A DNA stretch of 64,000 nucleotides, taken from positions 1 through 64,000 of the forward strand of contig NZ_BMFG01000010.1 of NCBI RefSeq assembly GCF_014638005.1. The letters run 5' to 3'. This document shows, piece by piece, positions 13,983 to 28,040 of this stretch (its first letter is position 1; each line of letters starts with the position of its first letter). The notes below the pieces were generated by a model. It worked only from the letters and a program-made list of their open reading frames with translations, had not been told where the DNA came from and did no database searches. The position numbers and the translations under genes are program-made. This DNA comes from Flavobacterium orientale. Lineage in GTDB: Bacteria; Bacteroidota; Bacteroidia; Flavobacteriales; Flavobacteriaceae.

Positions 13983-14225
13983 CACCCACCCATGTAGGAG
14001 TCCCGTAGGGACGGAACATATTGTAGCAACGGATTTTAATCCGTTGGTAAATAATCAAACAAATTGTAGCAACGGATTTCAATCCGTTGGTAAATAAAAA
14101 CAAATCATATTACAACAACGGATTTCAATCCGTTGGTAAATAAAAACAAATCATATTACAACAACGGATTTCAATCCGTTGGAATGGTTCAAATAATATT
14201 GCAACAACGAATTTTAATCCGTTGC
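13983..14225. repeat. Composite palindromic repeat cluster (5' flank of copper island)
   Basis: One hairpin GTCCCGTAGGGAC (14000-14012) is followed by five copies of the near-perfect palindrome CAACGGATTTCAATCCGTTG, or a one- or two-base variant, at 14027, 14070, 14116, 14162 and 14205, spaced 43-46 bp. Spacers contain TAAATAAAAACAAATCATAT-like sequence. The pattern is that of a REP-type dispersed element. Related composites lie at 24879, 26035-26300 and 27855-28040. No repeat-associated transposase is in the window. Confidence 0.9.
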
Positions 14226-14310
14226 GAAACAAACAAAACAAATGCTATGATTTCAATCAATTGCTAAAATAACCAAAACATCCATTTTCAGGTTTTAACA
14301 TAAAATTAAT

Positions 14311-14339
14311 TAAGAAACAGCAATTTCTTAGTAAGTTTG
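14311..14339 (+). promoter_or_regulatory. Promoter of the Cys-rich gene with overlapping inverted repeat
   Basis: TAAGTTTG at 14332-14339 matches TAnnTTTG and lies 17 bp before the ATG. Immediately upstream, TAAGAAA (14311-14317) and TTTCTTA (14324-14330) form a 7-bp inverted repeat with a 6-bp spacer, placed where a regulator would block or aid polymerase. Regulation by copper is inferred from the gene order only. Confidence 0.5.
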
Positions 14340-14356
14340 TAACTTATTCATTACTA

Positions 14357-14749
14357 ATGAAACATTTATTCACATTTTGCATTGTTCTGATCAGCTTCCT
14401 TTTGGTTCCTGATACGGCCATGGCATGTGTGAAGATGAAGGCGAAAAAATCGTGTTGTATTGAATCGATTAAAGAAACTACGGAAACGTCAACTTGTTGC
14501 TCCACAAAAGAAGCTTCTTCTGACTCCTGTTGTGCTTCTGATTCCAAAGGATGTGATAACTCCTGCAACAATGGAACTTGCACCTGTTTTGCCACGTGCT
14601 CTGTTACACCGGTAAGCTTTATTACAACTTTTGATTATGACTACAATCCGGTGGTTTTCCCCGGTTATAAAAAAGTAAAATTTTTATATACTACACCTTC
14701 CCTTTCTGAAGGTTTTTCGTCCATTTGGCTAATTCCTAAAATAAGCTAA
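14357..14749 (+). CDS. Secreted Cys-rich protein of the copper island
   Basis: A 130-residue protein with a signal peptide (FLLVPDTAMA). The middle third is packed with Cys in CC and CxC arrangements (KKSCCIES, TSTCCSTKE, SDSCCASD, CDNSCNNGTCTC), resembling a metal-binding segment. The C-terminal part is free of Cys and ends in SSIWLIPKIS, which I recall as a conserved ending in similar Flavobacterium proteins beside copper genes. It is probably a periplasmic metal buffer or sensor. It is separated from the next gene by 180 bp carrying several inverted repeats, so it may be transcribed separately. Confidence 0.75.
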   Translation: MKHLFTFCIVLISFLLVPDTAMACVKMKAKKSCCIESIKETTETSTCCSTKEASSDSCCASDSKGCDNSCNNGTCTCFATCSVTPVSFITTFDYDYNPVVFPGYKKVKFLYTTPSLSEGFSSIWLIPKIS

Positions 14750-14756
14750 AACCCTT

Positions 14757-14801
14757 TTTTGACAGCCCTACGTGTGTCAAAATTATATAGTTTTAACTAT
14801 A
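14757..14801. promoter_or_regulatory. Two adjacent inverted repeats before the HMA-DUF3347 gene
   Basis: TTTTGACA (14757-14764) pairs with TGTCAAAA (14775-14782), with a 10-nt loop, just after the Cys-rich gene stop. TATAGTTTTAACTATA (14786-14801) is a second, perfect palindrome. The direct repeat GTCAACTAGTGTCAACT follows at about 14811-14827. The first hairpin lacks a T tract, so a simple terminator is unlikely; operator function is possible. Confidence 0.5.
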
Positions 14802-14929
14802 ATCATTACCGTCAACTAGTGTCAACTGTGATTTAAAGTGTTCGATAACTAGTAGGCCATTTTACTAAATCAATTTAATTTATTATTCATTCTTCAAAGT
14901 TTTACGCTTTGATAACAATTTATTACATT

Positions 14930-15916
14930 ATGAAAAAAACAATCATAAACGTACTGATAGCCACATTTTTCGTGCTATCGGCTACCACACAAGCACAAAT
15001 AAAAAACACAGAAACAGCGTCAACTAAAGTATATGGCAACTGTGGCATGTGTAAAAAAACTATTGAAAAAGCAGGAACAATTAATAAGGAAGCGACTGTG
15101 GTTTGGGATGTCAATACGAAAATGGCAACACTCACTTTTGACAGTAAAAAAACCAACCAAGATGCCATTTTGAAACGCATTGCTTTGGCCGGTTATGACA
15201 ACGAACAGTTTTTAGCTCCCGATGATGTTTATGCTAACTTACACGGTTGTTGTCAGTATGAGCGAGAAGCTAAAACTGCGGTAAAACCTCATGAGCATCA
15301 TACAACTGTGGTTGTTACCACTCCTGAAGCACCAATGGATCATTCCAAGCACGTTGTAACTGCACCAAAAGCAGAAACCAAGAAAGAACAACAAGCAACT
15401 GCGGTTGTTACCACACCTGAAGCACCTAAGGATCATTCCAAGCACGTTGCTCCTGCACCAAAAGTGGTAACCAAAATTCAAAAAACCAATATGTTATTGC
15501 CTGTTTTTGAAGCTTATTTTAGTGTAAAAGATGCCATGATACAATCGGACGGCTCGGCAACTGCTACAAAAGGAAAACTGTTACTGGCAGCGATTGAAAA
15601 GGTTGATATGAACCAACTCGGAGCCAAAGAACACGACGTTTGGATGCAAGTTCTCCGTCCATTAAAACAAACTGTTCAAAAAATAAGCGAGACTAAAAAC
15701 ATTGGTACACAACGCGGTCAATTGGATCTCCTTTCTAAAAACATGCTTAACTTAGCAAAGGTTTCGAAGTGGGACTTTGCAATTTATAACCAACATTGCC
15801 CCATGGCGAATGATGGTAAAGGTGGGAATTGGTTAAGCAAACAAAACACCATTAAAAACCCCTATTACGGTTCAAAAATGATGACCTGTGGTAGTACTGT
15901 TGAAACCCTTAAATAA
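14930..15916 (+). CDS. Exported HMA-DUF3347 copper-binding protein
   Basis: 328 residues from MKKTII; the upstream in-frame start adds only MITIYYI. After a signal peptide (SATTQAQ) comes an HMA-like domain with the metal site GNCGMCKKT. A linker follows with two copies of TTPEAPxDHSKHV, each bearing His. The C-terminal ~150 residues are a DUF3347 domain: LLPVFEAYFSVKDAM near its start, then NQHCPMANDGKGGNWLSK and NPYYGSKMMTCGS, with Cys, Met and His suited to copper. The family is common in Bacteroidota copper and efflux clusters. The TlpA gene starts 5 bp later, so the two form an operon. A role as periplasmic copper chaperone is inferred. Confidence 0.88.
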   Translation: MKKTIINVLIATFFVLSATTQAQIKNTETASTKVYGNCGMCKKTIEKAGTINKEATVVWDVNTKMATLTFDSKKTNQDAILKRIALAGYDNEQFLAPDDVYANLHGCCQYEREAKTAVKPHEHHTTVVVTTPEAPMDHSKHVVTAPKAETKKEQQATAVVTTPEAPKDHSKHVAPAPKVVTKIQKTNMLLPVFEAYFSVKDAMIQSDGSATATKGKLLLAAIEKVDMNQLGAKEHDVWMQVLRPLKQTVQKISETKNIGTQRGQLDLLSKNMLNLAKVSKWDFAIYNQHCPMANDGKGGNWLSKQNTIKNPYYGSKMMTCGSTVETLK

Positions 15917-15921
15917 GTAGT

Positions 15922-16392
15922 ATGAAAAATAGTATCCTTTCTTGTCTCTTTTTGTTTTGCTTGACGCAGGCAAATGCCCAACTTAATTTAGGTGACCCAT
16001 TACCTGCTGTGTTTTTGAAAAACACTACAGATGTCAATCAAAGTATTGCAACGTATTCAGGCAAAGTAGTTTTAATTGACTTCTGGGCTGCCTGGTGTGG
16101 TCCGTGCCGATTAGCCAATAGAAAATTAGTGAAATTATATAACGCCACTTCCCGAGAGCAATTTGAAATTATTGGCATCTCTTTGGATGTAAAACCGGAG
16201 CTGTGGAAAAAAGCCATTGAAAAAGATAATATCAAATACATGCAAGTCATCGATCCAAAAGGGTTTGATGCTCCCACTGCGATACAGTTTGGTGTGGAAC
16301 AACTTCCTGCCTCTTTTCTGTTTGATGCCAACGGCATTCTAATTGCCATTAATCCTACTGAAGAACAAATTAAAAAACATTTAAATCAATAA
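15922..16392 (+). CDS. TlpA-like periplasmic thioredoxin
   Basis: 156 residues with a signal peptide (LTQANAQ) and a thioredoxin fold. The active site is WAAWCGPCRL; the cis-Pro loop is in LPASFLFD. This is the TlpA/ResA branch that reduces or transfers thiols outside the cytoplasm. It lies between two CxxC-bearing HMA proteins, 5 bp after one and 3 bp before the other, so keeping their metal-binding Cys reduced is the most natural role here. That link is inference. Confidence 0.92.
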   Translation: MKNSILSCLFLFCLTQANAQLNLGDPLPAVFLKNTTDVNQSIATYSGKVVLIDFWAAWCGPCRLANRKLVKLYNATSREQFEIIGISLDVKPELWKKAIEKDNIKYMQVIDPKGFDAPTAIQFGVEQLPASFLFDANGILIAINPTEEQIKKHLNQ

Positions 16393-16395
16393 ATC

Positions 16396-16884
16396 ATGAG
16401 AATTCCAATTTATATCCTTCTTTTGTTAATGAGTCTGTCAACTACGGCTCAAATTTCAAAAATCGAAATTCAAGCTACCGGCTTGACTTGTTCCATGTGT
16501 TCCAATGCCATCAACAAGCAATTGAAAAGCCTTTCGGACGTTGAAAATGTTACGACCGACTTAAATACGAACACTTTTGTAGTGTTTCTGAAGCCGAACA
16601 ACACTTTTACACCTAAAACCTTTAAAGATAGTGTGGAAAAAGCCGGTTTTTTTATTGGGACTATGGTAGTAACGCTGGATAACTCTTATCTTCAGTCGAA
16701 CACCAATCAATTCATTGCACTGGAAGATAAAACAGTCACATCATCAAATGAAGCTGCTATCAGAATTTTAGACAAAGGCTATGTCACACAAAAAGAATAC
16801 AAAAAATTACAAAAGAAATACGCCAAAGTGGCTTCCTACAGTGGTGTAAATGAAGAAGTGTATCATTATAAATTCAACAACTAA
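16396..16884 (+). CDS. Exported single-HMA copper-binding protein
   Basis: 162 residues. A signal peptide (LSTTAQ) precedes an HMA domain with the site TGLTCSMCSNAI. The C-terminal part (IRILDKGYVTQKEYKKLQKKYAKV) is helical and unrecognised. Heavy-metal-associated domains usually deliver Cu(I) between partners; an exported copy fits a periplasmic relay. Its stop overlaps the next start in TAATG. Confidence 0.88.
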   Translation: MRIPIYILLLLMSLSTTAQISKIEIQATGLTCSMCSNAINKQLKSLSDVENVTTDLNTNTFVVFLKPNNTFTPKTFKDSVEKAGFFIGTMVVTLDNSYLQSNTNQFIALEDKTVTSSNEAAIRILDKGYVTQKEYKKLQKKYAKVASYSGVNEEVYHYKFNN

Positions 16885-17696
16885 TGCCAAAGTTACTTCT
16901 GACCGCCTTACTTTTTGTTTTCGCATCACAAAGTAAGGCTCAAGAACTGTTTGTAGTTACCGACCCGGCAAGTAATGTTCCTGCCAACTCGCTGAGTGTA
17001 CGATTAAGCAACTCGCTTTTTAAAGAGGCTTTAGCAACCGGCTACAATTACCATTTAATGCCCGAAGTAACTTGGGGTATGAATAAAAATTTGATGTTAC
17101 GCGGCACTGCTTTTCTCAGTGACCGAAGCAATGCATTGTATGCCGAAGGAGGCAGTGTGTATGCCAAGTACCGTTTTTTTTCTACGGATGATCTCAACAG
17201 TCATTTCCGATTAGCCGCTTATGGGCGATACAGTATGAACCGTGCCGATATCCATCAGGAACAAATTGATATTATGGGACACAATACGGGCTATGAAGTA
17301 GGTTTTGTCGCCACCAAACTTATAAAAAAAGTAGCAATAAGCTCTTCCGTGAGTTTTGAAAAAGCGTTGGACAACCAACCCGATCATCCTTTCCCTTCGC
17401 AGTTTGGGAACCATGCCACCAATTACACGTTCTCATTAGGTAAACTAATGCATCCGAAGGTATACACCAGTTACAAACAGACCAATATCAATTTGATGTT
17501 GGAGTTTGTAGGTCAAACCATCAACACCAACGGAAAATCCTATTTAGATGTGGTGCCTGCGGTGCAGTTTATCATTAACAGTCAAGCCCGAATTGATGTG
17601 GCCTACCGTTATGAAGTATTAAGTTCTATGTTGCGAACCGCACCTAACGGCTTTTATTTAAATCTTGAATATACCTTTTTTAACCTAGCCAAATGA
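16884..17696 (+). CDS. Predicted outer-membrane beta-barrel protein of the copper island
   Basis: 270 residues with a signal peptide (FASQSKAQE). The mature part alternates polar and hydrophobic/aromatic residues in strand-length blocks with turns (LMPEVTWGMNKNLMLRGTAFLSD, split by turns; VYAKYRFFSTDD; IDVAYRYEVLSS) and ends in LNLEYTFFN, the pattern of a small transmembrane beta-barrel with a terminal aromatic residue. No family is recognised. It overlaps both neighbours (TAATG upstream, ATGA downstream), so it is translated with the HMA and DUF2911 genes. It may be an outer-membrane copper channel or a structural component. Confidence 0.7.
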   Translation: MPKLLLTALLFVFASQSKAQELFVVTDPASNVPANSLSVRLSNSLFKEALATGYNYHLMPEVTWGMNKNLMLRGTAFLSDRSNALYAEGGSVYAKYRFFSTDDLNSHFRLAAYGRYSMNRADIHQEQIDIMGHNTGYEVGFVATKLIKKVAISSSVSFEKALDNQPDHPFPSQFGNHATNYTFSLGKLMHPKVYTSYKQTNINLMLEFVGQTINTNGKSYLDVVPAVQFIINSQARIDVAYRYEVLSSMLRTAPNGFYLNLEYTFFNLAK

Positions 17697-18565
17697 AACA
17701 TTTAATTACCTTAAGCCTTTTATTTTTTTGCACCATTCAGGTGTTAGCACAAGATAAAATTCAAATCAAAACCACTTCACCCAGTCCCGCTGCTTCCTTT
17801 GAGCAAGAAATAGGAAGTGCATTAGTAAAAGTAGCCTACAGTCGCCCCTTAGCCCGAAACAGAAAAATTATGGGTGATCTGGTTCCCTATAATCAGTTGT
17901 GGCGAACAGGTGCGAGTGATTGTACCACTTTCACTACGGACGAAGATATAGTTTTTGGCGGTACTATTTTAACCAAGGGGTCGTATTCACTTTTCTCCAT
18001 TCCTGGTGAAAAAGAATGGACTATAATTGTCAATAATGATACATCACTACATGGTGACTCCGGTTATGATCAAGCGAAGGATGTTATGCGATTTACAGTA
18101 CCCGTTCAAAAAACACCCCATTATTATGAAACATTTACCATCGAAATCAACGATATCAACTCACGAGGGGAAGGCTTTTTAAAAATTATTTGGGAGCATA
18201 CCATGGTTCAAATACCCATTAAAAGCACAGCTGATGAACGTAGTATGACTTTGATTCAAAACCATATCCTCCAAAATCAAACGACAGATGCTAACTTACT
18301 TTTTCAGGCGGCAAATTATTATATAACCACTAATAGAGATAAAAATCAAGCGATTAGTTGGCTGGTACAAGCGGAAAAATATGATGCACAAAATTTTTAT
18401 TATCCCAATTTAAGGCAAAAGCTTTTGGGTGAACAAAAAAAATATTCAGAAGCTTTGGAAGCTTCCAAAAAAGCGTTGGCTTTAGCTAAGGAAAAAAACA
18501 GCAAAGGGGCTATTAAATCGTTGGAAGAAAAAATAAAGGAATATGAAATTCTTTTAAAAAAATAA
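17693..18565 (+). CDS. DUF2911 protein with C-terminal TPR-like helices
   Basis: 290 residues with a signal peptide (IQVLAQ). Residues ~25-170 match DUF2911: VAYSRPLARNRKIMGDLVPY, WRTGASDCTTF, GSYSLFSIPGEKEWT. The C-terminal ~110 residues are paired helices resembling tetratricopeptide repeats (QKKYSEALEASKKALALAKE). DUF2911 has no firm function. Translational overlap with the barrel gene shows that this one belongs to the copper operon and is not an unrelated passenger. Confidence 0.85.
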   Translation: MKHLITLSLLFFCTIQVLAQDKIQIKTTSPSPAASFEQEIGSALVKVAYSRPLARNRKIMGDLVPYNQLWRTGASDCTTFTTDEDIVFGGTILTKGSYSLFSIPGEKEWTIIVNNDTSLHGDSGYDQAKDVMRFTVPVQKTPHYYETFTIEINDINSRGEGFLKIIWEHTMVQIPIKSTADERSMTLIQNHILQNQTTDANLLFQAANYYITTNRDKNQAISWLVQAEKYDAQNFYYPNLRQKLLGEQKKYSEALEASKKALALAKEKNSKGAIKSLEEKIKEYEILLKK

Positions 18566-18670
18566 CTGTGAATGCTGTAATTTAAAAAGGAAGTAGTGTA
18601 AATCAATGCTATAGTCATTTTGTAACTTTAGCTGCAGTAAATAAACTGTAAACTAAATAGTATTTAAATT

Positions 18671-18916
18671 ATGAAAAAATCAATCTTTTCAATGATCGTT
18701 ATGGTGCTGGTTGTTATGGCCTGCAATCAAAAAAACAACGACGAAAATCAGGGTGTTGTCTTATTGGAATCGGATACCACAAGTGTCAATAGTAGTGCTG
18801 AAACACAGGAAACAAAAGAAATGGCCTATGCCTGCCCCATGCATCCTGAAGTTAACGGAAATTCAGGTGAAACCTGTCCAAAATGCGGTATGGATTTGAC
18901 AGCTGTTCTGGAGTAG
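18671..18916 (+). CDS. Small lipoprotein with heavy-metal-binding domain (HMBD)
   Basis: 81 residues: a lipoprotein signal with MACNQ, a short acidic Ser/Thr linker, then YACPMHPEVNG and CPKCGMDL, the diagnostic CPMHP...CxxCGMDL pattern of the small heavy-metal-binding domain found in Cu ATPases and Cus proteins. The same domain appears twice in the CopA at 19590. It is probably an envelope copper scavenger. It is separated from DUF2911 by 105 bp and lies 35 bp before the regulator gene. Confidence 0.85.
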   Translation: MKKSIFSMIVMVLVVMACNQKNNDENQGVVLLESDTTSVNSSAETQETKEMAYACPMHPEVNGNSGETCPKCGMDLTAVLE

Positions 18917-18951
18917 TAGTACAAGGTAATCTAGTATATGGATAGAATAAC

Positions 18952-19512
18952 ATGAAGCTCTACATTAAAAACATGGTTTGTAGTCGCTGCAAAATGGTAG
19001 TGAAGTCCGCGTTAGAAACACTCGGACATTCACTGCTTGCAGTAGATTTGGGTGAAGTAGAATTAGCCATGCCAGTTACAGATGATGAAAAAAAAGCCAT
19101 TGCCGAACAGCTGAAAGCCTTTGGTTTTGAAATCATCAACGACAAAAAAAGCAGAACGATTGATAAAATTAAAACACTAATCATAACGTTAGTCCATAAT
19201 CAAAATATACCGTTAAAAACCAATCTGTCCGATTATTTATCGCAAGAATTACATCAAGATTACAGTATATTATCCAATTTGTTTTCAGAAGTTACGGCTA
19301 CCACAATTGAGCAATTTTATATCCATCAAAAAATTGAAAAGGTAAAAGAGTTGCTGCTGTATGACGAAATCTCACTCAGTGAAATTGCGGATAGTTTAAA
19401 TTACAGTAATGTAGCTCATTTGAGTAATCAGTTTAAAAAAGTGACGGGCTTTTCACCTACTCATTTTAAAAATTTAAAAGTTGTAAAAAGAAAACAAATT
19501 GAAGATTTATAA
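18952..19512 (+). CDS. AraC-type regulator with intact HMA-like metal site
   Basis: 186 residues. The first ~70 read as an HMA-like fold with the metal site NMVCSRC (MxCxxC). The C-terminal ~100 residues form an AraC-type domain (IEKVKELLLYDEISLSEIA, NQFKKVTGFSPTHFK). There is no ligand-binding cupin. It aligns end to end with the copy at 7921-8481, which lacks the first Cys. Position between the HMBD lipoprotein and copA argues for a copper-sensing activator. Similar HMA-AraC proteins are, as I recall, widespread in Bacteroidota but rarely characterised. A candidate operator lies just downstream. Confidence 0.85.
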   Translation: MKLYIKNMVCSRCKMVVKSALETLGHSLLAVDLGEVELAMPVTDDEKKAIAEQLKAFGFEIINDKKSRTIDKIKTLIITLVHNQNIPLKTNLSDYLSQELHQDYSILSNLFSEVTATTIEQFYIHQKIEKVKELLLYDEISLSEIADSLNYSNVAHLSNQFKKVTGFSPTHFKNLKVVKRKQIEDL

Positions 19513-19542
19513 ATTTTACAAATCAAACCCATAATTTTACAA
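19512..19542 (+). promoter_or_regulatory. 21-bp-spaced direct repeat before copA (candidate AraC operator)
   Basis: AATTTTACAA occurs at 19512-19521 and again at 19533-19542, a centre spacing of 21 bp (two helical turns). Similarity extends weakly past each copy (T at +2, AA further on). AraC-type proteins typically bind direct repeats in this phase. The site overlaps the last base of the regulator gene and lies about 50 bp before the copA ATG. This is pattern evidence only. Confidence 0.55.
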
Positions 19543-19589
19543 GTGCAAGACAAGGGATTGTTAGAAATTTGTACTATAAAAAGACAAAA

Positions 19590-22127
19590 ATGAAACATAC
19601 CTATCACATTACCGGAATGACTTGCGACGGCTGTCGCTCAAAAGTCGAAAAAGCACTGCAAAGCATCGAAGGAATTGATGTTCAAGTTTCTCTGCATCCA
19701 CCTTTGGCTACCATAACGATGCAAAATCATGTGGCAACGGAACGGTTACAAGCAGCTTTATCAGCAGTTGGGCCCTATACCATTGCGATGAATAATGGGA
19801 AGACTTCTGCCTCATGCCACACCGAATCAACTACCAAAACATCCTGTTGTGCCACACCTTCTGTAACGGAAAAAAAAGCAGTACACATTCCTCACGGAAA
19901 ATACTACTGCCCGATGCATTGTGAAGGAGAAAAAACGTATGACAAACCCGGAGATTGTCCTGTTTGTGGTATGGATTTGGTAGCACAACAAAATCTCTCC
20001 TACACTTCATCAGAACAATGGACATGCCCCATGCATCCTGAAATCGTAAAAGACGAAGCAGGTGCTTGTCCGCTTTGTGGTATGGATTTAGTACCCTTAC
20101 AGGCTTCGCTTTCCTCAGAAGAAAAAACATATACAAAATTATTGCGGAAGTTTTGGATAGCTAGTGCCTTCACCTTGCCTATTTTTATAATTGCCATGAG
20201 TGAAATGATTACTAATAATCCGTTATATGAGCTATTTGAACAAAAATATTGGAATTGGATACAGTTCTTTTTGTCTATTCCCGTAGTTTTTTACGCGACC
20301 TGGATGTTTTTTGAACGGGCTTACAGAAGTATCAAAACGTGGCAACTTAATATGTTTACACTGATTGGAATTGGTGCCGGTGTAGCTTGGTTATTTAGTG
20401 TTTTTGGCATGCTTTTTCCTGATGTATTTCCCGAACAATTCAAAACCGATTCAGGTGCGGTTCATGTTTATTTTGAGGCTGCTACCGTTATTTTAACGTT
20501 GGTTCTTTTAGGTCAATTATTAGAAGCTCGTGCTCACAGCAAAACCAATTCTGCCGTAAAAGAACTTCTGAAATTAGCTCCAAACAAAGCCATCAAAGTT
20601 GTCGATGGCGAAGAAGTAGAAGTAACTATTGATAAAATTGAAGTAGGCGATATTTTAAAAGTAAAACCGGGTGAAAAAATTCCGGTAGATGGCACCATAA
20701 CCGAAGGTGACACTACTGTTGACGAATCGATGATTACAGGTGAGCCCATCCCGGTAAACAAAGCCAATGGTGATTCGGTTAGTAGTGGAACCATCAACGG
20801 CAACCAGTCTTTTTTAATGAAAGCCGAAAAAGTAGGTAGTGCAACGTTGCTCTCTCAAATTATTCATATGGTAAATGAAGCCAGCAGAAGTCGGGCTCCA
20901 ATACAAAATTTAGCAGATAAAGTATCTGGCTATTTTGTTCCCGTAGTGGTGCTTATTTCCTTGCTCACTTTTGCCGTTTGGGCTATTTGGGGACCGGAAC
21001 CCGCTTATGTTTTTGCGTTTGTGAATGCTATTGCCGTTTTAATAATTGCTTGTCCTTGTGCCCTTGGATTAGCAACACCCATGTCGGTTATGGTCGGCGT
21101 TGGAAAAGGGGCTCAAAATGGTATATTGATTAAAAATGCCGAAGCTCTCGAGAAATTGAACAAGGTAACTACCTTAATCATCGATAAAACAGGAACAATT
21201 ACGGAAGGAAAACCTACAGTCGAAAAAATAGGGACTTTTGGTACTGTTTATAATGAAAGTGAAGTGCTTCAATTTATCGTATCCTTAAATAGCAACAGCG
21301 AGCATCCTTTAGCGGAAGCCACGGTAAAATTTGGTAAAGAACAAAATACTACCCTTTTAAAATCGGAAAAATTTAGTGCTGTTACCGGTAAAGGTGTCGA
21401 AGCGATTATTGCCGGTAAAAAAATAGCCTTAGGAAATCCGAAAATGATGGAACACAGTAATGCCGCAATTAATGTTACCCTGGAAGAGGAAGCAAAAAAA
21501 TTCCAACAACAAGGTAAGACCGTATCCTATTTATCAGTAGATAAAGCAGTTGTTGGTTACGTAGTTATTGGCGATAAAATAAAACCCACAAGTGCCAAAG
21601 CGATTGCCGAACTTCAAAAAAACGGCATCGAAGTAATCATGCTTACCGGCGATAACAAAGACACGGCAAAAGCTGTAGCCGACGAACTCCATTTGTCTGA
21701 TTTCAAAGCCGGTATGCTGCCTGAAGATAAAATGAAAGAAGTAGCAAAACTGCAACTGCAAGGCAAGATTGTAGCAATGGCGGGCGATGGCATTAATGAT
21801 GCCCCTGCTTTAGCCAAAAGCGATGTAGGTATCGCCATGGGAACAGGTACTGACGTTGCCATAGAAAGTGCCATGATAACGCTGATAAAAGGCGATTTAC
21901 AAGGTATTGTAAAAGCACAAAAACTCAGTAAAGCGGTTATGAGAAACATCAAGCAAAATCTATTTTTCGCACTGATTTACAACACATTGGGTATTCCTAT
22001 TGCAGCAGGATTGCTATTTCCGTTTTTCGGCATCTTATTGTCGCCGATGATTGCTGCTTTGGCCATGAGTTTTAGTTCGGTCTCTGTTATAGTCAATGCT
22101 TTACGATTACGAACTATTAAAATTTAA
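19590..22127 (+). CDS. copA: Copper-exporting P1B-type ATPase with HMA and two HMBD domains
   Basis: 845 residues from MKHTYH; an upstream alternative adds MYYKKTK. The N-terminus has an HMA domain (GMTCDGC), a Cys-rich linker (TKTSCCATP) and two small metal-binding domains (YYCPMHCE...CPVCGMDL about 105-131; WTCPMHPE...CPLCGMDL about 144-170). Then come the P-type ATPase parts: TGEP (about 383), the intramembrane metal site CPCALG (about 488), DKTGT with the phosphorylated Asp (about 531), SEHPL and GDGINDAP (about 731). CPC and HP identify the Cu(I)-type P1B subgroup. It exports Cu(I) from the cytoplasm to the periplasm, where the HMA and oxidase products of this island can receive it. The gene follows the regulator and is 2 bp from the DUF305 gene. 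Confidence 0.95.
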   Translation: MKHTYHITGMTCDGCRSKVEKALQSIEGIDVQVSLHPPLATITMQNHVATERLQAALSAVGPYTIAMNNGKTSASCHTESTTKTSCCATPSVTEKKAVHIPHGKYYCPMHCEGEKTYDKPGDCPVCGMDLVAQQNLSYTSSEQWTCPMHPEIVKDEAGACPLCGMDLVPLQASLSSEEKTYTKLLRKFWIASAFTLPIFIIAMSEMITNNPLYELFEQKYWNWIQFFLSIPVVFYATWMFFERAYRSIKTWQLNMFTLIGIGAGVAWLFSVFGMLFPDVFPEQFKTDSGAVHVYFEAATVILTLVLLGQLLEARAHSKTNSAVKELLKLAPNKAIKVVDGEEVEVTIDKIEVGDILKVKPGEKIPVDGTITEGDTTVDESMITGEPIPVNKANGDSVSSGTINGNQSFLMKAEKVGSATLLSQIIHMVNEASRSRAPIQNLADKVSGYFVPVVVLISLLTFAVWAIWGPEPAYVFAFVNAIAVLIIACPCALGLATPMSVMVGVGKGAQNGILIKNAEALEKLNKVTTLIIDKTGTITEGKPTVEKIGTFGTVYNESEVLQFIVSLNSNSEHPLAEATVKFGKEQNTTLLKSEKFSAVTGKGVEAIIAGKKIALGNPKMMEHSNAAINVTLEEEAKKFQQQGKTVSYLSVDKAVVGYVVIGDKIKPTSAKAIAELQKNGIEVIMLTGDNKDTAKAVADELHLSDFKAGMLPEDKMKEVAKLQLQGKIVAMAGDGINDAPALAKSDVGIAMGTGTDVAIESAMITLIKGDLQGIVKAQKLSKAVMRNIKQNLFFALIYNTLGIPIAAGLLFPFFGILLSPMIAALAMSFSSVSVIVNALRLRTIKI

Positions 22128-22129
22128 TT

Positions 22130-22609
22130 ATGGAAAATAAAAAGGAACATTTAAACAGCAATTACAGTACATTCTTTGTTATGCTCGCTTGCTCATTTGT
22201 GGCAATGTACATTACAATGTATTTAAATACCTATGCCATAGACCATGTCTATTTTAGCCTCACACGCTTATATATGACTTGTTTAGGAATTTCGACAATG
22301 GCAGTCATTATGTGGTTTTTTATGCGACACATGTATAAAAATAAGAAAAAAAACATTGCGATACTCGTGGTTAGTTTTACGATCTTTGTGAGTGCATTGG
22401 GTTTAGTCCGAGCACAGCAACCATTTATTGGAGATCTACTATGGATGAAAGCAATGATTCCACATCATTCAATTGCTATTTTGACGAGTGAACGAGCAGC
22501 TATCCAAGATCCTGAGGTTAAGCAATTGGCAGAGGCAATTATAGAAGCCCAACGCAAAGAAATTGAAGAAATGAAAACAATGATTAGACGATTGGAAAAT
22601 GAGAAATAA
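22130..22609 (+). CDS. DUF305 membrane protein
   Basis: 159 residues with three predicted membrane segments and a C-terminal helical tail containing FIGDLLWMKAMIPHHSIAIL and EEMKTMIRRL. The MIPHHxxAI motif is typical of DUF305, which occurs next to copper genes in many bacteria. The His pair and Met residues could bind copper. It starts 2 bp after copA, and its end overlaps the oxidase start by 11 bp, so all three are one translational unit. Its function is unknown. Confidence 0.88.
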   Translation: MENKKEHLNSNYSTFFVMLACSFVAMYITMYLNTYAIDHVYFSLTRLYMTCLGISTMAVIMWFFMRHMYKNKKKNIAILVVSFTIFVSALGLVRAQQPFIGDLLWMKAMIPHHSIAILTSERAAIQDPEVKQLAEAIIEAQRKEIEEMKTMIRRLENEK

Positions 22610-24818
22610 ACAAATAATTTACGCTTTTTTATTTCTTTTATTTGGAAATATCGTAGTCGGCCAACAAGTTGTCCGCTATGACCTCTATGTAAAAGACACC
22701 CTTGTCAATTATACGGGAAAGCAAAAACGAGCCATTGCTGTGAACGGTCAAATTCCGATGCCTACCCTTACCTTTACAGAAGGGGATATTGCCGAAATAC
22801 ATGTGCATAACCAACTCAAAGAAAGTACTTCTATGCATTGGCATGGCATTTATTTACCCAACCAAGAAGATGGTGTCCCATTTTTAACGCAAATGCCAAT
22901 TGCACCCAATACGACACATATTTACCGATTTCCAATCGTTCAAAACGGTACGCACTGGTACCACAGTCACAGTGGATTGCAAGAACAAATCGGCATGTAT
23001 GGTTCGCTCATTTTGCTCAAACGACCTGATGATAAAACCTTTCGAAAAGGTATTGATGATATCCCTGCCGTTCCCATTATTCTCAGCGAATGGACCGACT
23101 ACAAACCGGAAAACGTGCATCGCATGTTGCACAATGCTTCCGATTGGTTTGCGATAAAAAAAGGAACGACACAAAGTTATGCCGAAGCTCTCCGAGCGGG
23201 GCATTTTAAAACCAAACTGACCAACGAATGGAAACGCATGTTGGCAATGGATGTGAGCGACATTTATTACGATCAATTTTTAATCAACGGAAAAAACGAA
23301 AGTCAGCTTTCCCAATTCAAAGCAGGTGAAACGATTCGGCTGCGAATTTCAAACGCGGGTGCTTCCTCCTATTTTTGGTTGCGGCATGCCGGAGGTAAAC
23401 TCACCGTTGTAGCCAATGATGGCAATGATGTAGCACCCGTAGAAGTGGACCGATTGCTTATTGGTGTCTCCGAAACCTATGATGTTCTGGTTACCCTTCC
23501 GGCAGAAAATACGTCCTATGAATTCTTAGCCACTGCTGAAGACCGAACCAAATCGGCTTCCATCTATTTGGGTGGCGGAATCAAACAATTAATTAGTCCG
23601 TTGCCCAAGCTGAACTATTTTGAAGGCATGAAAATGATGAATGACATGATGAAAATGAACGGCGACATGCACGATATGGGAATGAAAATGAGCTTACAAC
23701 AAATGGACATGAATGCGGTGATGTATCCCGAAATCACGGATAAAAAGAAACCGATGGAATCCAACCATTCCGACCATTCGAATCACAACATGGATGCCTC
23801 TGAAATCGTGACGCTAAACTACGCGATGTTGAAATCGCCAACCAAAACCAATCTGCCGGAAGCAGCTCCTGTAAGGGAATTTCGTTTTGAACTCACCGGA
23901 AACATGAACCGTTATGTCTGGAGCATGGACAATAAAGTACTGGCAGAATCCGATAAAATCCTGATAAAAAAAGGAGAAAACATTCGTATCACGCTCTTCA
24001 ATAATTCCATGATGCGGCATCCGATGCATTTACACGGTCATGATTTTAGAGTAATCAACGGTCAAGGCGATTATGCACCTTTAAAAAACGTGATAGACAT
24101 TATGCCGATGGAAACCAACGTCATTGAATTCAATGCCAATTTAGAAGGCGACTGGTTTTTTCATTGCCACATTCTCTACCACATGATGGCAGGAATGAAC
24201 CGCGTATTCAGTACGGAAGACCAAGCACCCAATCCGCTTTTGCCTAATAAAGCATGGGCCTACAAAAAGTTACAAAGGGAAAGCAACGAAATGCATTTCA
24301 TGATTCAAAATGACTTTGCTACTAACGGAAATGACGGTATGGCGATGTTGCAAAACACCCGCTGGAGTTTGGGAACCGAATGGCGTTTGGGCTATCACAA
24401 TGACCACGGTTATGAAAGCGAAACCCACATTGGGCGATACATTGGCAAAATGCAATGGCTAATGCCTTTTATTGGTTTTGATTGGCGGTACCGAAAACTA
24501 GGACATAATGCCGTAGAAAAAAACCTCTTCGGACAAAAAAACACCAAAGACAGTCGCACGCAAGTCAGTTTGGGTGTCGCTTATACCTTACCTCTCCTGG
24601 TCATCATTCAATCGGAACTCTACCATGATGGCAACGTTAGGATACAACTACGACGGGAAGATATCCCTATTTCAAAAAGAATCAGAGCCGCCTTTATGAT
24701 AAATACCGACAAAGAATACATGTTTGGCATGCATTATATCGCCGGAAAAAACATAGGATTCCGAACGCATTACGACAGCGATATGGGCTTTGGTGTGGGG
24801 ATGCTGGTGAATTATTGA
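22599..24818 (+). CDS. Multicopper oxidase (CopA-type) with CopB-like C-terminal barrel extension
   Basis: 739 residues with a signal peptide (GNIVVGQQ). Copper-ligand motifs: HWHGIY (about 80), HWYHSHSG (about 119), HPMHLHGHDF (about 474) and HCHILYHMMAGM (about 522), giving type 1, 2 and 3 sites. A Met-rich segment (KMMNDMMKMNGDMHDMGMK) and a His segment (NHSDHSNHNMD) lie between. From about 560, another ~175 residues are strand-rich (WSLGTEWRLGYHND, FIGFDWRYRK, MGFGVGMLVNY) and resemble a CopB-type outer-membrane domain; CopB is usually a separate gene. It probably oxidises periplasmic Cu(I), the fused barrel perhaps anchoring it to the outer membrane. Last gene of the island. Confidence 0.9.
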   Translation: MRNKQIIYAFLFLLFGNIVVGQQVVRYDLYVKDTLVNYTGKQKRAIAVNGQIPMPTLTFTEGDIAEIHVHNQLKESTSMHWHGIYLPNQEDGVPFLTQMPIAPNTTHIYRFPIVQNGTHWYHSHSGLQEQIGMYGSLILLKRPDDKTFRKGIDDIPAVPIILSEWTDYKPENVHRMLHNASDWFAIKKGTTQSYAEALRAGHFKTKLTNEWKRMLAMDVSDIYYDQFLINGKNESQLSQFKAGETIRLRISNAGASSYFWLRHAGGKLTVVANDGNDVAPVEVDRLLIGVSETYDVLVTLPAENTSYEFLATAEDRTKSASIYLGGGIKQLISPLPKLNYFEGMKMMNDMMKMNGDMHDMGMKMSLQQMDMNAVMYPEITDKKKPMESNHSDHSNHNMDASEIVTLNYAMLKSPTKTNLPEAAPVREFRFELTGNMNRYVWSMDNKVLAESDKILIKKGENIRITLFNNSMMRHPMHLHGHDFRVINGQGDYAPLKNVIDIMPMETNVIEFNANLEGDWFFHCHILYHMMAGMNRVFSTEDQAPNPLLPNKAWAYKKLQRESNEMHFMIQNDFATNGNDGMAMLQNTRWSLGTEWRLGYHNDHGYESETHIGRYIGKMQWLMPFIGFDWRYRKLGHNAVEKNLFGQKNTKDSRTQVSLGVAYTLPLLVIIQSELYHDGNVRIQLRREDIPISKRIRAAFMINTDKEYMFGMHYIAGKNIGFRTHYDSDMGFGVGMLVNY

Positions 24819-24878: not shown

Positions 24879-25022
24879 CCATGTAGGAGTCCCGTAGGGA
24901 CGGCACATATTGTAGCAACGGATTTTAATCCGTTGGTATCGTACAAATGATCTTGTAGCAACTGATTTTAATCTGTTGGCATCGAACAAATCATATTGTT
25001 AAAACGGATTTCAATCCGTTGG
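24879..25022. repeat. Composite palindromic repeat (3' flank of copper island)
   Basis: ATGTAGGAGTCCCGTAGGGAC, here split by its hairpin, is followed by CAACGGATTTTAATCCGTTG (about 24916-24935) and two decayed copies (CAACTGATTTTAATCTGTTG and an AACGGATTTCAATCCGTT form). The order and spacing match the start of the cluster at 13983, so closely related elements bracket the copper genes. Both are in the same orientation. Confidence 0.88.
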
Positions 25023-25072
25023 TGTAACCAAAATATAATGTAAAAACACCTTCTTACAATTTAAAAAAAGTG

Positions 25073-25120: not shown

Positions 25121-26002
25121 ATGAAAAAAGTATTTGTACTAAGCTGTTTGTGCCTCAGTTTTTCTTTGTTTTCTCAAAACCCTGTTAATTTATCAAGTCC
25201 GGTTACCCTAAAAAGTTGTGCCGATAAAACAACCAACAATTTTCCCGAACTTAAAAGATGTTTTACGTCCTATTTAAGCAATGAAGTTGCTAAAAGTATT
25301 AATTCGACCGAAATAATGAATGACGTGCCTCATGACCTACAATTTACTATATTTTATCATGTAGCTACCAATGCCATGATACATCGGGATTCAACAGTGC
25401 TTCGCAGACATTCAAAGTACACCTCAGTAATTGGCCTTCTTGACCAACAAATTGATGCTCTATTTAACCGAATCAATCAAAAAACGAAAGCCGGAACAGC
25501 TTTGGTAGCTGCAAAAAATAAAAATGGTGAGTTGACAGAAGAAAAATCCTCCTTACCGCTAACATTGGTATCGGTTGGTTTTGATGATAAGGAAATCAAA
25601 AAGCAGATTGAGGCTGTAGAAAAAGAATTTCAACAAAAAGCCATCTTTGCTCAAAAAGAAGGGGAACATTATGTGTTATTTTATCAATCAACTCGCAACA
25701 GCACCTTCTTTACCTACCAATTGGACCCAACAACTAAACAAGTTACCTTTCTTAAAGAATACGCCGATTTTAAAAAACTTCTTGAAGCCTATCCCAACGT
25801 AGAAGAGGGAATCAACCAACCCAATTATACCTTGTCCTATTTTTTCTATAAAGAGTATGATTTCATGTATGAAATTCAAAAGAAAGAAGAAAACTATCTC
25901 GTGTTACAACACCGTTACAAAACACCTTCAATCAATATGATTTTTGAAAATTTACTTTCTATTTATCATTCCTATTTTCAATATACTTTATTGAAAAATT
26001 AG
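25121..26002 (+). CDS. Secreted protein of unknown function (293 aa)
   Basis: A signal peptide (SFSLFSQNP) is followed by a mature protein of mixed helix and strand. The first third has two Cys (KSCADKTTNN, LKRCFTSY). The middle is rich in Lys, Glu and Gln; the C-terminal part is aromatic (YTLSYFFYKEYDFMYE). No family is recognised. It has its own promoter and palindromic repeats on both sides, like the next gene. Confidence 0.65.
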   Translation: MKKVFVLSCLCLSFSLFSQNPVNLSSPVTLKSCADKTTNNFPELKRCFTSYLSNEVAKSINSTEIMNDVPHDLQFTIFYHVATNAMIHRDSTVLRRHSKYTSVIGLLDQQIDALFNRINQKTKAGTALVAAKNKNGELTEEKSSLPLTLVSVGFDDKEIKKQIEAVEKEFQQKAIFAQKEGEHYVLFYQSTRNSTFFTYQLDPTTKQVTFLKEYADFKKLLEAYPNVEEGINQPNYTLSYFFYKEYDFMYEIQKKEENYLVLQHRYKTPSINMIFENLLSIYHSYFQYTLLKN

Positions 26003-26034: not shown

Positions 26035-26300
26035 GTCGGATTGAAATCCGACATATCATTCCGTTACAACCGAATAAAATCCGTCAAATTATTACGATAC
26101 AACCGGATTGAAATCCGGCCCTACAATAAATTCGAGCCTACGGCTCTGGGAAATGGCATACTATTATCCAAAAATTCAATCCAGCTTTACACCCCCCCCC
26201 ATGTCAAAGTCCCGTAGGGACGGCACATATTGTAGCAACGGATTCTAATCCGTTGGTATCGTTCAAATAATATTGTTAAAAGGGATTTCAATCCCTTGGG
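26035..26300. repeat. Palindromic repeat cluster with compensated stems
   Basis: The order is GTCGGATTGAAATCCGAC (26035-26052), CCGGATTGAAATCCGG (26103-26118), a GAGCCTACGGCTC hairpin (about 26133-26145), GTCCCGTAGGGAC (about 26209-26221), CAACGGATTCTAATCCGTTG (about 26236-26255) and AAGGGATTTCAATCCCTT (26280-26297). Stem bases differ between copies while pairing is kept, which argues for selection on or propagation of the folded form. ORFs called across this stretch are not genes. A 26118-26260 segment recurs at 27855-28010. Confidence 0.88.
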
Positions 26301-26362
26301 GATTAAAAATAGCATTTATATCTGATTTAGTTGTATCTTTACTATCCCCAATCTTACTACCT

Positions 26363-27769
26363 ATGAAAACAAAAACTATTGTTTTTTGTGCAATTTTTTT
26401 TATACAATTTTTTTCCAATGCCCAAATTGGAATCGGCACCACTGAACCACATAGTTCTTCCATATTACACATTGAATCCATATCACAAGGTCTTCTACTA
26501 CCCAGGATGAGTAAAGCTGAAAGGGATGCTATCATTGCCCCTGCGGAAGGGTTACAAATTTATAATCTGACTAACAATTCCTCCGATATATTTAGCGGTG
26601 GCGATTGGAAATCCTTTTCCTTTTCAGTGAACTCCAACTTGGTTTATGTTTACTCACTTGCAGATTTACCTTCGCCGGTAGGCACTACTATCACCTTGGA
26701 TGCCACTAAAATGTATGTCTTTTCCGGATTTGTTGATATCAGTCCCAATGCTATTATTATAAATGGTGCAGGACTTCGTGGAACTGACCCCCAAAAAGAC
26801 ATGATAGTTTCCAATGTCAGCGGTGCCGTACTGAGAAGTACGGATACCAGTATATTTATCGAAAATTTAGCGGTCGTTCCCTTTAGTGCTTCCACCAAAG
26901 CCTATGATTTTTCAGACAGTACCGGAAATATGTATTGTAATGTTTTTTCAGGATCTTCAGTAGTGGAAATTATGCCATCATTAGGAGTTGGTCAAATTTC
27001 AGGATTTAAAGCCATTACCTTTACTAAAAACTTTTGGAAAGTTACAGATGGATTAAAAATAACAGGGAATGTTGGTAAATTTGCAGTTGCCTATTGTTTT
27101 ATTGAAAACATAACAAACGGGTCCGCCATTGAATTTTTATCAGGTCTAATCATCGATGATATCGATTTGTCAAACAACTATTTCATTTACAACGGACAAA
27201 CCGGTATTAAGGTAAATGCAGGAGCAACGATTGACAGAGGACGATTAACCACAAATATGTTTAGGGGCGTTACCACTCCATTGCAAGGTATTGATTCGTA
27301 TTCAAAAGGATGGAGCATGAGACAAAACACCAACATACCAGACTCCAGAGCATTTAGTTTCATTTATTTCAACAATAATGAAACACCTACCACACTTACA
27401 ACAGTAGGCACTTTTTATAAAATTGCCGGAACAGCAACAATTGTAAATCAAAAAAGGTTTATAACTGCCAATAGCAGGATGACTTACAATGACGTTGAAC
27501 CCATCACCGGTAAAATAGTTGTAACTATTGGAGCTAAAGCACCCGCCAATAATTCAGACTTTTCAATCGGGATTGCAAAAAATGGAACTATGATTACAGC
27601 ACCCATAGCTTCTATGGCTGCGGCAAGCAATAACCAATCCTTTCAAATTACATTGAATACCGAGGTGGATTTAGTTTTAGGGGATTACATTGAAGTTTTT
27701 ATAGCCTCTAATAATTCAAATACCTCTTCCGTTATAGTCAATGATTTACAATTTAGAGTAACTGATTAA
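26363..27769 (+). CDS. Secreted surface-type protein, possible beta-helix (468 aa)
   Basis: The start is taken at MKTKTIVF, where a signal peptide (FFSNAQ) begins; the longer reading would translate repeat DNA. The mature N-terminus (IGIGTTEPHSSSILHIES, GLLLPRMSKAERDAI, PAEGLQIYNLT) is a motif I know from many Flavobacteria surface proteins and phage tail-like proteins. The middle has regular short hydrophobic strands with Asn and Gly turns (GLIIDDIDLSNNYFIYNG), consistent with a right-handed beta-helix. No type IX sorting domain is visible at the C-terminus. Its function is unknown. Confidence 0.7.
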   Translation: MKTKTIVFCAIFFIQFFSNAQIGIGTTEPHSSSILHIESISQGLLLPRMSKAERDAIIAPAEGLQIYNLTNNSSDIFSGGDWKSFSFSVNSNLVYVYSLADLPSPVGTTITLDATKMYVFSGFVDISPNAIIINGAGLRGTDPQKDMIVSNVSGAVLRSTDTSIFIENLAVVPFSASTKAYDFSDSTGNMYCNVFSGSSVVEIMPSLGVGQISGFKAITFTKNFWKVTDGLKITGNVGKFAVAYCFIENITNGSAIEFLSGLIIDDIDLSNNYFIYNGQTGIKVNAGATIDRGRLTTNMFRGVTTPLQGIDSYSKGWSMRQNTNIPDSRAFSFIYFNNNETPTTLTTVGTFYKIAGTATIVNQKRFITANSRMTYNDVEPITGKIVVTIGAKAPANNSDFSIGIAKNGTMITAPIASMAAASNNQSFQITLNTEVDLVLGDYIEVFIASNNSNTSSVIVNDLQFRVTD

Positions 27770-27854: not shown

Positions 27855-28040
27855 AAAGCCGTATAATAAATTTGAACCTACGACTCTGGTAAATGCATCC
27901 CTAAAGTCAGTAACCTAATACAATTTTGCTAAATTCAATCCCTCATTTCCACCCGCCCCATGTCAAAGTCCCGGAGGGACGACACATCTTGTAGCAACAC
28001 ATTTTAATCCGTTGCTATCGTACAAATCATTTTGTAGTTT
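27855..28040. repeat. Decayed copy of the composite palindromic repeat
   Basis: It contains AATAAATTTGAACCTACGACTC (about 27866-27888), GTCCCGGAGGGAC (27968-27980) and CAACACATTTTAATCCGTTG (about 27995-28014). It aligns with 26118-26260 in order and spacing, but its stems are broken by substitutions. The two long copies lie on either side of the gene at 26363. Confidence 0.8.

Follow-up and report, generated by a model that had tools for sequence, protein, structure and literature searches.

The 64,000-nucleotide stretch of Flavobacterium orientale DNA analysed here (the window; contig NZ_BMFG01000010.1, positions 1 to 64,000) carries eleven plus-strand genes, designated A to K, that occupy positions 14357-24818 and make up a copper operon of familiar type in which a single module is without an assigned role. 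That module is a pair of adjoining genes, D and E, encoding an exported HMA protein and a predicted outer-membrane β-barrel. This pair is the new element; the other parts, and the overall role, are mostly of known kinds. We hold it slightly more probable than the contrary that the block works as one copper-stress operon, transcribed mainly from a promoter ahead of A, which moves copper outward stepwise.

Gene D (16396-16884) specifies an exported protein with a conserved C-terminal tail. Its HMA domain reaches 39.5 bits with PF00403 (cut-off 24.8) and has CSMC as its CxxC motif. Gene E (16884-17696) falls in no Pfam or NCBIfam family, the best Pfam score among 24 members being no better than E 0.02, and a sequence comparison with the PDB produced a single match that is not credible (E 0.67). 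The protein has a signal peptide (judged by eye, as were all signal peptides in the window, the lipobox of G and the TPR-like part of F), and AlphaFold, given an alignment of 41 sequences, folds it into a barrel of 12 strands (mean predicted local distance difference test score, pLDDT, 82.3; predicted template-modelling score, pTM, 0.77), as expected of an outer-membrane channel. The fold resembles those of FapF (Z 21.5), a COG4313 channel (Z 20.3) and KdgM (Z 19.6) at 7-10% identity; PcoB is not among the 50 matches listed. With residues assigned to the two faces by strand alternation, conservation is 0.88 on the inward face vs 0.78 on the outward face. The inward-assigned residues Met59, Met71, Met205, His57, His107 and His190, along with acidic or charged ones, are kept in at least 90% of the 41 sequences. 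In the model, this Met/His conservation would be compatible with passage of a metal, without being proof of it.

Relatives of E are encoded in 242 stretches of the genome collection. Two overlapping sets of loci were compiled: the best 80 of these stretches, which are the closest relatives by choice, and 80 regions from the 83 places where E occurs in the genus (the own genome and two fragments excluded). Close relatives by E are Flavobacterium (e.g., L111, at 96%). Collapsing identical E DNA reduced the 160 loci to 112 distinct ones, with the window copy standing outside the 112; 83 of them have full context, i.e., flanks of at least 7 kilobases (kb) before and at least 8.5 kb after E. Related species inflate all locus counts, and the p-values below ignore kinship. 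D adjoins E in every one of the 83 full-context loci, and the D family is present in 110 of the 112. The gene-neighbour analysis across Bacteroidota that the preliminary description had proposed was extended to ten distant loci (L207-L216; E identity 26-40% in eight of the ten) and yielded an HMA protein ahead of E in nine. It stands directly before E in eight, while in L213 a thioredoxin lies in between; the HMA gene of L214 was identified through the reverse search with D. HYC-type small proteins are often found near the distant E (two tested, the rest judged by eye). The two genes are also inherited jointly: the phylum sample includes 18 genomes of the genus, of which 8 have both genes and 10 have neither. 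Over the 296 Bacteroidota genomes, E occurs in 18 and D-like matches in 34, many of the weaker ones being mere HMA domains by reverse search. In a sample of the family (149 genomes, 148 genera), the E profile retrieved the own genome plus one weak partial match, and a search with the single E protein retrieved the own genome only.

The connection of the pair to copper is apparent from the neighbouring genes. A "copper gene" was taken to be at least one of CopA, a K-type oxidase, a CusA-type pump (called by eye in the relatives) and an HMA-AraC regulator. Such a gene is present in 65 of the 83 full-context loci: the oxidase in 37, the pump in 36, CopA in 31 and the regulator in 30; another P-type ATPase is found in 17. 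The overlap-linked genes had been expected to be tied to copA; the tie is to copper genes at large (65/83) and, in a minority of loci, to copA itself (31/83). Furthermore, genomes with E tend to have the barrel of K as well (15/18 vs 44/296 overall, Fisher 2.2e-11; outside the genus 7/10 vs 27/278, Fisher 3.7e-6; neither corrected for kinship). DsbD-type reductase genes (one member confirmed as DsbD) lie in 8 of the 83 loci, five of which belong to the group of 18 that lacks a copper gene, and this fits a thiol-reducing partner. A DUF2911 gene is present in 4 of the same 18. Finally, a gene of the Haem_bd family, so assigned from its tested member, occurs in 32 of the 112 loci.

In relatives, D-E is preceded by A, B and usually C. 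Gene A (14357-14749), whose product is a small Cys-rich secreted protein ending in IWLIPKIS, belongs to a family found in 96 of the 112 distinct loci (74 of the 83 with full context). The window copy matches nothing in Pfam or NCBIfam, including DUF6769 and HYC_CC_PP (NF047658). A relative in L094 is barely over the Pfam DUF6769 cut-off (27.5 bits vs 27). The likeness to HYC_CC_PP lies in position, a HYC-type protein being found near the place of A in distant loci; the two such proteins that were tested pass NF047658, the others being by-eye calls. Gene B (14930-15916) encodes an exported protein made up of an HMA-like domain, a His-bearing linker and DUF3347 (PF11827, 1.2e-20; 74.6 bits vs a cut-off of 25.5). 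Its designation as an HMA-DUF3347 protein is firm for the second half; for the HMA part, Pfam reports no domain at E up to 0.1, and support comes only from MerP/CopZ-like NCBIfam matches, all below their cut-offs. Among loci with 3.5 kb of upstream DNA, tblastn detects B in 75 of 77 from one of the two overlapping sets and in 64 of 71 from the other. An 89-base near duplication in the linker (15293-15474) doubles a stretch bearing DHSKHV, possibly a copper-binding segment. Gene C (15922-16392) encodes a TlpA/ResA-type thioredoxin, exported by eye, with WCGPC as its CxxC motif. It exceeds the Pfam cut-offs for PF00578 (AhpC-TSA; 1.6e-16, 60.8 bits vs 26), PF13905, PF08534 and PF00085, and reaches none of the NCBIfam subfamily cut-offs. 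Its family is represented in 81 of the 112 distinct loci and in 66 of the 83 with full context.

At the distal end of the block, gene K (22599-24818) encodes a multicopper oxidase with three Pfam Cu-oxidase domains and a predicted C-terminal 12-stranded barrel (approximately residues 563-739). The motifs HWHG, HWYHSH, HPMHLHGH and HCHILYHMMAGM, invariant or nearly so across 21 sequences, are presumably the four His-rich copper motifs of multicopper oxidases. The TIGR01480 model of the PcoA/CopA subfamily gives 381.1 bits, below its cut-off of 478.95. Since the model of the whole protein has a mean pLDDT of 48.8 and a poor oxidase part, only the tail is interpreted. There, 12 strands are predicted in the last 175 residues, at a local pLDDT of 57-82. 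KdgM (Z 17.4) and NanC rank above PcoB (7pge; Z 13.1, root-mean-square deviation 3.4, 159/198 aligned) as fold matches. Sequence comparison of the tail with the PDB returned nothing at E up to 5, and none of 20 tails matched a CopB-type Pfam family with the E limit set at 5, a setting at which the search filters remove most matches above 0.1. A relationship between E and the K tail was considered and is unsupported (hhalign probability 0.3). The tail is normally fused to the oxidase, because 50 of its 55 phylum matches lie within frames of at least 700 residues and, of the other five, the four that were opened (L217-L220) are split genes or contig ends. In L218 and L219, the oxidase-barrel gene is split across several frames.

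The sequence upstream from A points to a promoter. In the window, TAAGTTTG (14332-14339) is the sole match to the consensus TAnnTTTG in the non-coding DNA that precedes block genes; PMC9723704 gives this consensus as the -7 box recognised by sigma-A in mapped F. psychrophilum promoters. No TTG is found in the window 17-23 bases before the box. When only genes preceded by a gap of at least 60 bases are counted, the box precedes 90 of 96 A genes, as opposed to 1 of 73 B genes, 2 of 41 genes of a further B-like group, 3 of 46 CopA genes and 4 of 33 C genes. The first two counts make A the most likely operon head, and a single transcript probably starts there. A second element, TTTTAACA (14293-14300), precedes 40 of 96 A genes vs 5 of 388 other genes (23 of 67 vs 4 of 344 stretches without near copies). 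Its distance to the -7 box, near copies removed, is 20, 32 or 43 bases (plus or minus 1) in 7, 15 and 5 of 29 cases, respectively, and some other value in two. These steps of about one helical turn would suit an activator site, making TTTTAACA a candidate for one. H was considered as its binder and was rejected, as motif and H show no significant association (Fisher 0.17, 67 loci stretches).

Among the remaining genes, I (19590-22127) encodes CopA, a copper P-type ATPase with an HMA domain and two HMBD stretches (TIGR01511, PF00403, PF19335, PF00122). It scores 588.6 bits with TIGR01511 (cut-off 397) and holds ACPCALG and DKTGTITEG, whose CPC and DKTGT we take to be the motifs of P1B-1 copper ATPases. 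Gene H (18952-19512) encodes a small AraC-type regulator (PF12833, 2.2e-13) with an HMA-like N-terminus, MVCSRC, that stays below the HMA cut-off (14.8 bits vs 24.8); with its MVCxRC start, H is a possible one-component Cu(I) sensor. Plasmid records with a match to H number 108, and in 30 the match extends over at least 80% of the protein. Gene G (18671-18916) encodes an HMBD lipoprotein (PF19335, 1.7e-10; 41.1 bits vs 23.6 in Pfam). The product of J (22130-22609) is a membrane-anchored DUF305/CopM-like protein that passes PF03713 (41.9 bits, cut-off 27) and falls short of the NCBIfam CopM cut-off (41.1 bits vs 90).

Gene F (17693-18565) encodes DUF2911 (PF11138, 3.3e-49; 166.9 bits vs a cut-off of 27) followed by the TPR-like region. 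In the genus, DUF2911 has a background of 135 matches in 81 genomes, or 0.46 per megabase (Mb). It is found, at varying positions, in 13 of the 83 full-context loci, whereas 0.79 would be expected in their 1.70 Mb, an approximately 16-fold excess (Poisson 3e-12, kinship not corrected). On these counts F is a real neighbour, optional and confined to a minority of loci. It directly follows E in 5 of the 112 loci, including L146, L188 and L189 (the L146 and L188 members pass the Pfam model). Of the coupling of thioredoxin, HMA protein, barrel and DUF2911 put forward in the preliminary description, the part concerning D-E, A, B and C is conserved and DUF2911 lies outside the core. Similarly, the D-E overlap marks a conserved pair and the E-F overlap does not. 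The middle genes, to which no function had been assigned, do form a conserved, copper-linked envelope unit in the shape of D-E with A, B and C. Other genes directly following E are a methyltransferase-like gene, recognised by eye in 19 of the 112 loci (e.g., L042, L157), and, in the distant loci L209 (6661-8052) and L211 (8797-10191), one whose product is rich in His and Met and about 465 residues long; no Pfam family matches the L211 copy.

As to the layout of the block, all genes previously named (those for the Cys-rich, DUF3347, TlpA, HMA, barrel, DUF2911 and HMBD proteins) were found on the plus strand where they had been placed, and overlapping starts can be read from the coordinates, D and E sharing 1 base, E and F 4 bases, and J and K 11 bases. 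Absent from the earlier list are H, J and the C-terminal barrel of K. Between A and B lies a gap of about 180 bases, and between F and G one of about 105 bases. Conservation of the gene order in other species argues that it is not due to chance; L085 has a minimal form, A-B-D-E-CopA-oxidase. The term "island", if it is to mean foreign DNA, is not supported by composition, as the G+C content of the block (0.36-0.44) resembles that of its surroundings (0.34-0.40). Palindromic repeats, CAACGGATTnnAATCCGTTG, with a spacing of 39-46 bases, flank the block (14007-14230, 24896-25027, 26236-26255 and 27995-28014). The own genome has six exact copies, all within 14.0-26.3 kb, and 11 places when up to 2 mismatches are allowed, one of them on another contig; the near relative L031 has ten copies ahead of its block. 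These palindromes were rejected as island borders or as a copper mark because they are scattered through 31 of 150 genus genomes, the pattern of a genus repeat. Two genes to the right of the operon (25121-26002 and 26273-27769) have no Pfam match.

The proposed operation of the system is as follows. CopA would export Cu(I) out of the cytoplasm. Periplasmic Cu(I) would be bound by A, B and D, all of the Cys- or HMA-type, whose cysteines would be kept reduced by thioredoxin C. K, joined to an outer-membrane barrel of its own, would convert Cu(I) to Cu(II) and let it out. E would provide a second barrel, with D probably handing copper to it, or gating it, so that copper can cross the outer membrane, and H probably senses Cu(I). 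In this scheme we infer the metal, the direction of flow, the contact between D and E, the reducing role of C, the sensing role of H and the relay through C, A/B/D and E; resting on the conserved D-E pairing, the relay is a reasonable idea.

Several observations weigh against this scheme. Of 299 genomes of the genus, no more than 76 contain E, the own genome included. In the distant locus L215, E stands without a neighbouring D; conversely, the D homologues of L223 and L224, opened because no E had been found, have no E beside them; a thioredoxin and a HYC-type gene again lie near the D homologue of L223. Several distant D-E pairs are located among housekeeping genes. CopA is near in a minority of loci only, 18 of the 83 lack a copper gene within the fetched flank, and HMA domains serve other metals too. 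The inward residues of E derive from strand alternation, not from coordinates, and the assignment for strand 177-190, which includes His190, relies on almost no contrast. The -7 box also precedes H (6/17), K (4/16) and other genes (138/388), so that internal promoters, at H or K in some species, are possible. Lastly, PcoB of E. coli is described as a copper importer in the accessible text of PMC9210255, and flow might accordingly run in reverse.

The importer function described for PcoB would suit another reading, in which A-E form a thiol-redox and metal-chaperone unit supplying copper to cuproenzymes of the envelope, whether K or a terminal oxidase, in place of a detoxification route, and E imports copper or a copper ligand. 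TlpA and DsbD-type partners recall oxidase metallation, the Haem_bd-type gene is a frequent neighbour, and some cassettes lack CopA or pumps; as CopA, pumps or the oxidase mostly lie in the same locus, we regard this reading as rather unlikely. Alternatively, the cassette might serve another soft metal, or soft metals generally, and copper genes might have joined it secondarily. The weak matches of B and D do include MerP and MerTP models, and the loci devoid of copper genes are in line with this idea. Against it, the recognised metal neighbours are mainly copper genes (mercury and zinc genes were not searched for systematically), and E co-occurs with the barrel of K even outside the genus; we find it improbable. 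A loose collection, in which copper genes and unrelated envelope genes (the barrel, DUF2911) came together by chance, would explain why DUF2911 and G-H-I-J-K move or vanish between genomes; it is contradicted for D-E by a nearly invariant pairing, runs counter to the excess of DUF2911 and can hardly be entertained. No more credible is an ordinary Pco/Cus-like copper operon of Flavobacteriia with E as a general porin, since such a porin, for all that the nearest folds are general channels (FapF, COG4313, KdgM, NanC), would need neither a tie to one HMA gene nor conserved inward Met and His.

A more specific proposal, which we put forward tentatively and consider doubtful, is that in Bacteroidota the two proteins D and E together form a conduit for copper through the outer membrane that differs from the Pco, Cus and TonB-dependent routes. 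In it, a dedicated exported HMA protein, maintained in reduced form by TlpA, would deliver Cu(I) to a 12-stranded pore lined with Met and His, with DUF2911 as an optional periplasmic accessory. A full-text literature search, covering mostly titles and the beginnings of abstracts and few subscription journals, gave no description of D-E and no paper combining DUF3347 with copper. Even in the case of PcoB there is no agreement on how copper passes the outer membrane, both efflux (PMC12509749) and import (PMC9210255) being reported. A so far uncharacterised barrel that keeps to a single metal-binding partner across many species offers a compact and testable case, and D-E is a testable candidate for an additional copper route over the outer membrane. 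A function hypothesis is gained for two unknown families, that of E and, more weakly, DUF2911.

Compared with known systems, E shares the fold of the 12-stranded KdgM/NanC and COG4313 channels and differs from them in sequence (7-8% identity). The substrates of those channels are other than the copper assumed for E. The role proposed for C has a counterpart in Bradyrhizobium, where, according to the accessible portion of PMC6696091, the periplasmic thioredoxin TlpA reduces the copper chaperone ScoI. Unlike that case, the block has no Sco protein, the proposed targets of C are HMA and Cys-rich proteins, and C seems by eye to be secreted and not membrane-anchored. K recalls the PcoA-PcoB couple, described as cooperating in copper efflux in Caulobacter in the consulted part of PMC12509749, in that it combines an oxidase with an outer-membrane barrel whose fold aligns with PcoB. 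It departs from that couple in being one polypeptide, in having a tail with no CopB-type Pfam match and in remaining under the TIGR01480 cut-off. The fused architecture of K is already published for Bizionia argentinensis: the portion of PMC11213822 at hand, which makes no mention of an HMA-paired barrel like E, describes in G2EDV6 the same arrangement of three oxidase domains and a C-terminus that resembles a porin and is somewhat similar to PcoB.

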